Assembly: GCA_030431715.1 (NCBI GenBank)
Contig: JAUIIO010000002.1
Span: forward strand, 62,001 to 126,000
Reading direction: 5' to 3'
Length of the DNA stretch: 64,000 bases
DNA from: a bacterium
Lineage (GTDB): Bacteria; Bdellovibrionota_C; UBA2361; RFPC01
Position numbers and translations under genes: made by a program. Within the stretch, counting starts at the first letter, position 1. The number at the start of each line of letters is the position of its first letter. Positions 39,625-55,478 of this stretch are shown piece by piece. The notes below the pieces were generated by a model. The model saw only the letters and a program-made list of their open reading frames with translations. It was not told where the DNA came from and ran no database searches.

Positions 39625-39710
39625 GTGGCGCTGAGCGCTCGACCGGGCGTGCGCGCACCCAGAAGGCTTGTCCGACCATAGCTTAAGCGACGGCTGATAC
39701 GCAGCAGCGG
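39625..39710 (+). repeat. 86-bp terminal repeat (copy 1) of the HNH element
   Basis: Starts GTGGCGCTGAGCG and ends TACGCAGCAGCGG. It matches the repeat at 54448-54532 in about 80 of 85 positions, in the same strand. It is followed by an N-terminal fragment of an HNH-type protein. Confidence 0.8.
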
Positions 39711-40004
39711 AGGCGATCCCACTCCACCACTGTGTTGGCTACGAAGTCATGATTTTTTTCACTCCACCAGTAGCTGGTGCGTGATCTTAAGTACTCTGAT
39801 GGAGAAGCCAACAGGAGAATTAGAGCGGCAAGGCTTTATCTTAAAAGACCAGAGGTGTGTGAACTTCTTAAAAGAAGAGAGGTCTCGCTTTGTACACTGA
39901 GTGAGATCCTTGATGAGCCTGAGATGCTGTCATTGCGAGGAGCTGAGGCGTTAGCCGAACGACGAAGCAATCTCCTCACTCCGGTATATGTGGCTGAGCA
40001 ATGA
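39711..40004 (+). pseudogene. Truncated N-terminal fragment of a DUF222-like HNH endonuclease
   Basis: The frame 39777-40004 encodes 75 residues beginning with YSDGEANRRIRAARLYLKRP and EVCELLKRREVSLCTLSEIL. This is the conserved N-terminal helical region of multi-copy HNH proteins ('lgYSe.aA.RRI.AarL...Pev...l..g.lslstl'). The last 25 codons run into a palindromic insert and stop. No HNH catalytic part follows. The second copy at 55425 is about 90% identical in protein. Dead element remnant. Confidence 0.75.
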
Positions 40005-40050
40005 GATTGCTTCGTCACTCATCTTGCGGCTTTGCGCTCCTCGCAATGAC
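39930..40050. mobile_element. Palindromic MITE-like insert (TCATTGCGAGGAGC...GCTCCTCGCAATGA)
   Basis: The ends are TCATTGCGAGGAGC and its complement GCTCCTCGCAATGA, and inside lie CGAAGCAATCTC and GAGATTGCTTCG. Similar palindromes with 'CATTGCGAGGAGCG...CGAAGCAATCTC' occur in many bacterial genomes as non-coding repeats. It interrupts the HNH fragment at the same codon as the copy at 55061-55183. Confidence 0.8.
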
Positions 40051-40182
40051 ATCTTAGTAGTGATTTGTTGTTGTGAAAAAAGGCTGTAGACTAGAAAAGA
40101 CTATTTTCCACTCCACCCCGGTAACGTTCTGTGTCTCTGCGTATTTAGCGGATTCTGCGGCTAATACTTTTTTCAGAAGGAA

Positions 40183-54447: not shown

Positions 54448-54532
54448 GTGGCGCTGAGCGCTCGACCGGGCCTGCGAGCATCCAGAAGGCTTGTCCGGCC
54501 ATAGCTTAAGCGACGGCTGATACGCAGCAGCG
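54448..54532 (+). repeat. Left terminal repeat of the HNH element (copy 2)
   Basis: 85 bases, nearly identical to 39625-39710 with about five mismatches; it lies just downstream of the HNH gene's stop (54545), in inverted orientation to the right repeat. Confidence 0.8.
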
Positions 54533-54544
54533 TTTCTCTCCTAA

Positions 54545-55425
54545 TTACCGAATAAGCCCCGCATCTCTAGCCATAAGCTGATTGTGATTCCGACAAAGCA
54601 GCCTCAAATTCTCAACCGAACTCACTCCACCAACCGCCACAGGCTTAATATGATCAAACTCAACACTCCACCGGGAGCCACACACAGAACCATCCTTATT
54701 CCTATAAGTACAACAGCCCCCATCTCTCTCAAGCACTTCTTTCTTAACTTTCGGTGAAATATACCGCCTGTTCTTACTCCCTCTCTCCTTACGAGTTCCC
54801 ATCTTCTCTTTCTTAGACCCCTCAGCTGCCAGTATTTGCTCAATCCCCTCAAGAAAGAGCTCCTCAATACTCACTCCCTTACCGGAGTACTTACGTGACA
54901 GTATCTCTCGAGCCTGTTCAATCTTCGCACTCTTTTCTCTGGAGTAAGAAAAGGTAACCTTGAGCCGCTCCTCAAGCACCACTTCCTGACGAATCACCAC
55001 CGGTGGTGGAGTGACACGATTCTCACCTGCTGGTGGAGTAGGAAAACTCGCGACTCAAATGTCATTGCGAGGAGCGCAAAGCCGCAGGCTGAGTGACGAA
55101 GCAATCTCACTGCTCAACCACATATAGCCGGGGCAAGGAGATTGCTTCGTCGTTCGGCTAACGCCTCAGCTCCTCGCAATGACAGCATCTCAGGCTCATC
55201 AAGGATCTCACTCAGTGTACAGAGCGATACCTCTCTTCTCCTAAGAAGCTCACACACCTCTGGTCTTTTAAGATAAAGCCTTGCCGCTCTAATTCTCCTG
55301 TTGGCTGCTCCATCAGAATACTTAAGCCCACGCACCAGATAATGGTGGAGTGAGGAAATCATTATACCGTAGCCACCAAGGTGGTGGAGTGCTACCGCTG
55401 CTGCGTACCAACTGGATGCTCGCAC
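54545..55425 (-). pseudogene. DUF222-like HNH endonuclease gene split by a palindromic insert
   Basis: Two pieces of one protein. The N-terminal piece (from 55425) contains YSDGAANRRIRAARLYLKRP and ends in a 123-base palindrome (55061-55183). The C-terminal piece resumes after it in an open frame (SFPTPPAGENRVTPPP), then VTFSYSREKSAKIEQAREIL and the HNH motif region: YISPKVKKEVLERDGG, CTYRNKDGSVCG (zinc-type Cys), FDHIKPVAVGG and NLRLLCRNHNQLMA. The catalytic HNH residues (DHIKP, NLRLLC.NHN) are intact, so the short ORF starting GTG 55000 could still yield a nuclease domain alone. The ancestral gene read through both pieces. Family members are often multi-copy in their genomes. Confidence 0.7.
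55061..55183. mobile_element. Palindromic MITE-like insert inside the HNH gene
   Basis: Ends GTCATTGCGAGGAGCG and its near-complement CTCCTCGCAATGAC; inside are GACGAAGCAATCTC and GAGATTGCTTCGTC. Same family and same insertion point as the copy at 39930-40050, so the insert preceded duplication of the HNH element. Confidence 0.8.
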
Positions 55426-55478
55426 ATGTCTTGCGTAGCCTTGGCGAAGGGGGAAGTCGCTTGTACGCTCAGCGCCAC
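55395..55478 (-). repeat. Right terminal repeat of the HNH element
   Basis: Read on the minus strand it starts GTGGCGCTGAGCG, then has an unrelated 40-base core, then GCGAGCATCCAG, TTGG and TACGCAGCAGCGG. It leads into the N-terminal HNH fragment as copy 1 does at 39625-39710. Confidence 0.7.

Follow-up and report, generated by a model that had tools for sequence, protein, structure and literature searches.

The window, a 64,000-nucleotide stretch of bacterial DNA that forms a piece of contig C42 of its host assembly (3.97 Mb, 56 contigs), holds remnants of an HNH nuclease gene at two sites. The larger, copy A, lies on the minus strand at 54448-55478. It starts with a 5' terminal inverted repeat (TIR; 55396-55478), continues with an N-terminal remnant of the gene (codons ~37-103, 55171-55374, 91% identity to the intact protein), a palindrome (55060-55184) and a C-terminal part (codons ~142-307, 54545-55045, 91% identity, PF01844), and ends with a 3' TIR (54448-54532) that can be aligned with 12 other element ends. 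At the palindrome ~120 bp of the gene are gone in comparison with the intact copy on contig C38. The C-terminal frame runs from a GTG at 55000, its own start being absent, and codes for an HNH domain that Pfam recognises above cut-off (PF01844, E 6e-6, frame 54545-55000). An earlier sequence-only reading had described a DUF222-like HNH gene bracketed by repeats at this place; the HNH domain is real, but the gene is defective and Pfam calls no DUF222 in its protein.

Copy B (39625-40117, plus strand) is shorter. Its 5' TIR (39625-39709) is followed by an N-terminal remnant that begins past an internal deletion (codons ~39-102, 39750-39938, 86% identity to the intact protein), by the palindrome (39928-40050) and by a short mid-gene remnant (40067-40117, 74.5% over 51 nt to C38), the HNH C-terminus and the 3' TIR being lost. 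Here one repeat was said to precede an N-terminal fragment only, which is right as to the absent right-hand TIR and leaves out the palindrome and the mid-gene remnant. An 85-bp direct repeat is present, as reported, at 39625-39709 and 54448-54532, and its two examples are 95% identical; they do match on the same strand, but they are opposite ends of their elements, 39625 marking a 5' TIR and 54448 a 3' TIR. The 5' TIR of copy B finds its nearest counterpart in the 3' TIR of copy A. An 85-bp inverted copy ending at 55478, also proposed, does not exist as such: the two ends of copy A share three separate inverted blocks, GTGGCGCTGAGCG (13/13), TGCGAGCATCCAG (13/13) and TGATACGCAGCAGCG (15 nt, 93%), and the left repeat at 54448 contains a ~31-bp insertion that is missing from the right one, which holds another ~31-bp insertion instead.

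Both copies have the palindrome at one and the same HNH codon, as had been noticed; the two examples are 93.5% identical, and their left junctions agree exactly (GCTGTC followed by ATTGCGAGG). The palindrome was thought to belong to the composite unit, but it is a separate REP-like repeat, spread across the genome and unrelated to the element: genome-wide, its 13-mer has 149 matches, against none for the reversed control. The repeat is ~125 bp long, of the type TCATTGCGAGGAGC...GCTCCTCGCAATGA, often arranged as facing pairs ~100 bp apart; in the window, TCATTGCGAGGAGC occurs four times with up to two mismatches against 0.59 expected, and the example at 55060-55184 folds far better than shuffled sequences (-75.9 kcal/mol, z -10.2). 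Such dispersal resembles that of REP/REPIN sequences mobilised by RAYT proteins, and two Y1 transposase genes are present in the host genome. Neither Y1 locus matches the palindrome, however, and mobilisation by these two local transposases was rejected. In a diverged HNH gene on contig C26 (378 aa, L008:223-1359) two half-palindromes are read through in frame as longer linkers.

The two copies have more than the palindrome in common. Aligned with the intact C38 copy, both lack the same ~375 bp, comprising the promoter, the start codon and the first ~36 codons; the junction, at 55340-55356 on the minus strand in copy A, is identical in the two. The deletion likely arose by recombination or slippage between direct repeats, since TCACTCCACCA is found at both of its edges. 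On the right-hand side of the palindrome the copies differ, copy A having lost the ~120 bp mentioned above and copy B less at that point with everything beyond gone, and their flanks are unrelated. As deletion and palindrome site are shared, copies A and B probably descend from a single copy that was already defective, and the simplest history is that this copy was itself copied later, in agreement with the earlier view that a palindrome-bearing copy had been duplicated. The deletion may instead have happened more than once at the direct repeat, but this leaves the common palindrome site unexplained. A common defective ancestor in turn suggests that movement took place in trans.

Copies elsewhere in the host genome were located by sequence search. 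The HNH protein, with its C-terminal part as query, gives 10 matches, and counting distinct 5' ends, of which there are seven, yields at least seven copies of the element. Degraded copies are common; the gene is intact in two, on contigs C46 and C38, and these do encode a full HNH protein, 307 aa from ATG, as a check on intact copies had been meant to establish. Eight contigs (C10, C12, C38, C42, C44, C46, C48 and C52) start or stop inside copies, as happens when an assembly fails to bridge a repeat. As reconstructed from the intact copies, the full element is about 1.4 kb long. A composite 5' TIR is followed by a pair of CACTCCACC-type sites, spaced by 39 bp, and by ~260 bp of upstream sequence; then comes the HNH gene, and ~12 bp past its stop codon the 3' TIR starts. 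In an alignment of 13 element ends two blocks, CGCTGCTGCGTACCTTCTGGATGCTCGCA and GCGCTCAGCGCCAC, are conserved, and TIRs are common to many copies, as is asked of an insertion sequence. Beyond the TIRs the flanks differ and the sites are unrelated. Some copies have ~31-bp insertions between or within the TIR blocks, one of which makes up part of the 85-bp repeat. The idea of a small mobile unit with terminal repeats is supported, but not in the form of uniform 85-bp repeats. Two distinct ~31-bp modules, TCAGCCGTCGCTTAAGCTATGGCCGGACAAG and ATGTCTTGCGTAGCCTTGGCGAAGGGGGAAG, were seen at fixed points of some TIRs and are absent from other TIRs (54498-54517, 55425-55455 and L010:1524-1560 in the alignment of ends).

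We are highly confident that, in this genome, we are dealing with a mobile, multicopy, TIR-bounded HNH element. The two sites in the window are decayed, non-autonomous members of this insertion-sequence-like element, whose sole gene codes for the HNH nuclease. The association of TIRs and gene is old, because a diverged copy on contig C26 that encodes a protein only 53% identical still has the 5' TIR; no recognisable 3' TIR was found in that copy.

In an AlphaFold2 model (pLDDT 84.6, pTM 0.49) the HNH protein has an N-terminal domain made of helices, a middle part of strand-helix-helix type, which may bind DNA, and the HNH domain at its C-terminus. Searches against solved structures returned weak matches to the HNH domain alone. 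Across 22 relatives the catalytic DH...N...H residues and the main cysteines are invariant, and DUF222 is matched weakly in seven of them (best E 1.5e-4). Between intact or nearly intact copies in the host genome dN/dS is 0.11-0.13; in three genomes with relatives, called here JAKFYM, JACPWY and G011, its median is 0.07 (66 pairs), 0.17 and 0.21, respectively, all of these being simple pairwise estimates made without a tree on intact or nearly intact copies. By this measure intact copies are under purifying selection in four genomes (0.07-0.21), which by itself does not prove a role in mobility. It would also suit a host function, and REP-like repeats are abundant in the host genome, so one could picture an ordinary family of host genes whose many copies arose by segmental duplication and around which such repeats accumulated. 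We find this very improbable, given that the flanks differ outside the TIRs, that many copies are degraded and that all five other genomes of the host's taxonomic family lack the gene family. Two further candidates were tried and rejected. PADLOC gave no match for the intact protein and weak nuclease-domain matches in relatives only, which disposes of a defence gene; as for a phage or plasmid origin, there was no phage match, and the match of four plasmid records is limited to the HNH domain.

Copies A and B are also rich in a short repeated sequence. Across the window there are 10 occurrences of the nonamer GGTGGAGTG, where 0.43 would be expected, and most are within these two copies; five of the sites are in copy A, at 54623, 54664, 55005, 55344 and 55383 (range 54623-55391). 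The 1.3-kb C38 element has seven occurrences of ACTCCACC, which fall on either strand, in each of the three reading frames and also upstream of the gene; in none of 200 first-order Markov shuffles did the top 8-mer reach more than four copies. In the diverged copy on C26 the repeated motif is another one, though related (CCACCAGTA / ACCGCCACC). It is attractive to regard the repeated motif as a subfamily-specific candidate binding site for the encoded protein.

The genome was searched with the 85-bp repeat, which gave 10 places, and with the inner TIR block at up to three mismatches, which gave seven, for a union of 12 distinct places. All 12 adjoin HNH sequence, the HNH upstream region or HNH remnants, so the scattering of repeats without HNH genes, which would have spoken against such a unit, is not what the genome contains. 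None of the 12 has a transposase next to it, in line with the earlier remark that no transposase was visible. Models of Pfam and NCBIfam tell the same: none for an insertion-sequence transposase matched, and HNH models alone exceeded the cut-off. A transposase could be missing from the data, since the assembly is 94.6% complete, and on this ground the HNH gene might be a passenger, serving itself or the host in some other way, inside MITE-like TIRs recognised by a transposase encoded elsewhere. The apparent movement of the defective copies A and B, which implies that the ends can work in trans, would suit this explanation as well. We nevertheless think it somewhat unlikely. No element carrying both these TIRs and a transposase was found in the host genome, the pairing of TIRs and HNH gene predates the divergence of proteins to 53% identity, and other genomes show this one-gene arrangement again, there between TIRs of unrelated sequence, which would take repeated capture.

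A profile of six proteins found 63 loci. They include metagenome-assembled genomes of Bdellovibrionales, Oligoflexia, Bacteriovorax, Myxococcales, Eisenbacteria and Elusimicrobia, and identities are 26-37%. Dispersal in many copies is seen in several genomes (10-36 matches per genome), four of the genomes with relatives having 14-36 matches each; within the window's phylum, only six of the 46 genomes examined have the family. G011, which belongs to this phylum and matches the LJ_bin-2050 genome, has 17 matches. Its copies terminate on both sides in CCCACAGATTCTGCGGAGGAGCC-type sequence with a 57-bp inverted repeat further in, and those of JACPWY (NC_groundwater_823) have a ~30-bp TIR of the type GGTTCTTTCT at both ends. 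HNH copies in relatives without the border repeats had been named as evidence against the unit, and to the letter they exist; but the TIRs of G011 and JACPWY, unlike those of the host genome, are their own, and a third genome, JAKFYM (ND5_Bin_65, 28 matches), shows no TIR above background. The 5' regions and genes of JAKFYM are conserved as far as about the stop codon. Directly after the HNH stop codon, long imperfect palindromes with ends like AAGCGGTCGCAAAAA were observed there (L079:3802-4000, L082:1020-1219), and its 3' modules vary from copy to copy.

A trace of the insertion event itself may be preserved in G011. There, CTGATTCT abuts the element in the outward flanks of two contigs, C169 (5' end) and C164 (3' end), and these flanks are complementary to each other over ~31 bp, with a score that was reached by none of 300 shuffles and by no other pair of ends. 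This is most simply read as a single insertion into a hairpin loop with an 8-bp target duplication, a single case in which the contigs were paired by that very evidence. Pairing of contig ends in the host genome revealed no target duplication, the only matches being of 6-9 nt and away from the ends, and an empty site at nadD could not be recovered from relatives in the taxonomic family, which are too distant (25-38% protein identity). HNH is the classic domain of homing nucleases, and a freestanding gene of that sort could cut related sites and spread as the breaks are repaired by recombination between copies; the end repeats would then be no more than common flanking homology. The shuffling of TIR variants among copies, exemplified by the 5' TIR of copy B, would be natural under gene conversion, and in M. 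tuberculosis the REP13E12 loci are gene-conversion hotspots (PMC13061034). We consider this explanation improbable, as the copies occupy unrelated sites with different flanks and the 8-bp duplication of G011, single as it is, fits transposition rather than homing.

The mechanism that we favour, and hold with middling confidence, is an insertion sequence whose own HNH nuclease takes part in its mobility. We infer that the protein would bind the element ends, perhaps via the repeated CACTCCACC sites, and would cut DNA at the ends or at the target, and in this way carry the element elsewhere; defective copies whose ends are still in place would be moved in trans by the protein of intact ones. The occurrence in distant bacteria of related elements with inverted repeats of their own and no recognisable transposase raises the possibility that the HNH nuclease moves its own DNA. 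It is a tentative idea that the nuclease itself is the transposase of TIR-bounded insertion sequences in several bacterial phyla, a class of DNA-moving enzyme outside the DDE, HUH, tyrosine, serine and Cas1 groups.

To our knowledge, no function is known for DUF222-HNH genes, which are common and multicopy and include those of the M. tuberculosis REP13E12 repeats. The closest known system is this mycobacterial DUF222-HNH repeat (13E12 family), listed by DIVE among repetitive elements (PMC10589994). The resemblance is one in kind: both are multicopy interspersed units around an HNH gene. Weak DUF222 matches occur in some relatives, and the window's protein itself has none. The element described here has defined ends. 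With classical insertion sequences it shares a length of ~1.4 kb, a single gene, TIRs, multiple copies and non-autonomous derivatives; it differs in having no recognisable transposase, and a target duplication was observed in just one instance, which comes from a relative. IscB and IshB are HNH proteins of IS200/IS605-type elements, and in NCBIfam the HNH domain studied here is nearest to IscB and Cas9. The match is confined to the HNH part, however, and does not extend to the RuvC and PLMP domains, with 22.4 bits against a cut-off of 175, and the element has TIRs instead. A guide RNA of the OMEGA type was considered and rejected (no Rfam match, upstream fold not unusual at z +0.8). KolobokP is a DNA transposon with a His-Me finger (HNH-like) nuclease (PMC9587614), but it also encodes a DDD/E transposase, and none was found here. 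Our searches of the open-access literature turned up no description of HNH-only insertion sequences. Given defined ends, an apparent target duplication and non-autonomous derivatives, what passed for a "repeat of unknown function" can now be tested as a mobile element, and one gene with two ends makes a minimal construct for asking whether an HNH nuclease can be a transposase; if so, this would be categorically new.

As to the ends, a loose ACTAYCAACT-like motif is observed ~25-35 bp outside the conserved TIR in several copies (outside 39625 and 55478, and before the TIRs of L004, L005, L006 and L010 in the alignment of ends). The motif might mark where the element really ends, or else reflect a preference for certain targets.
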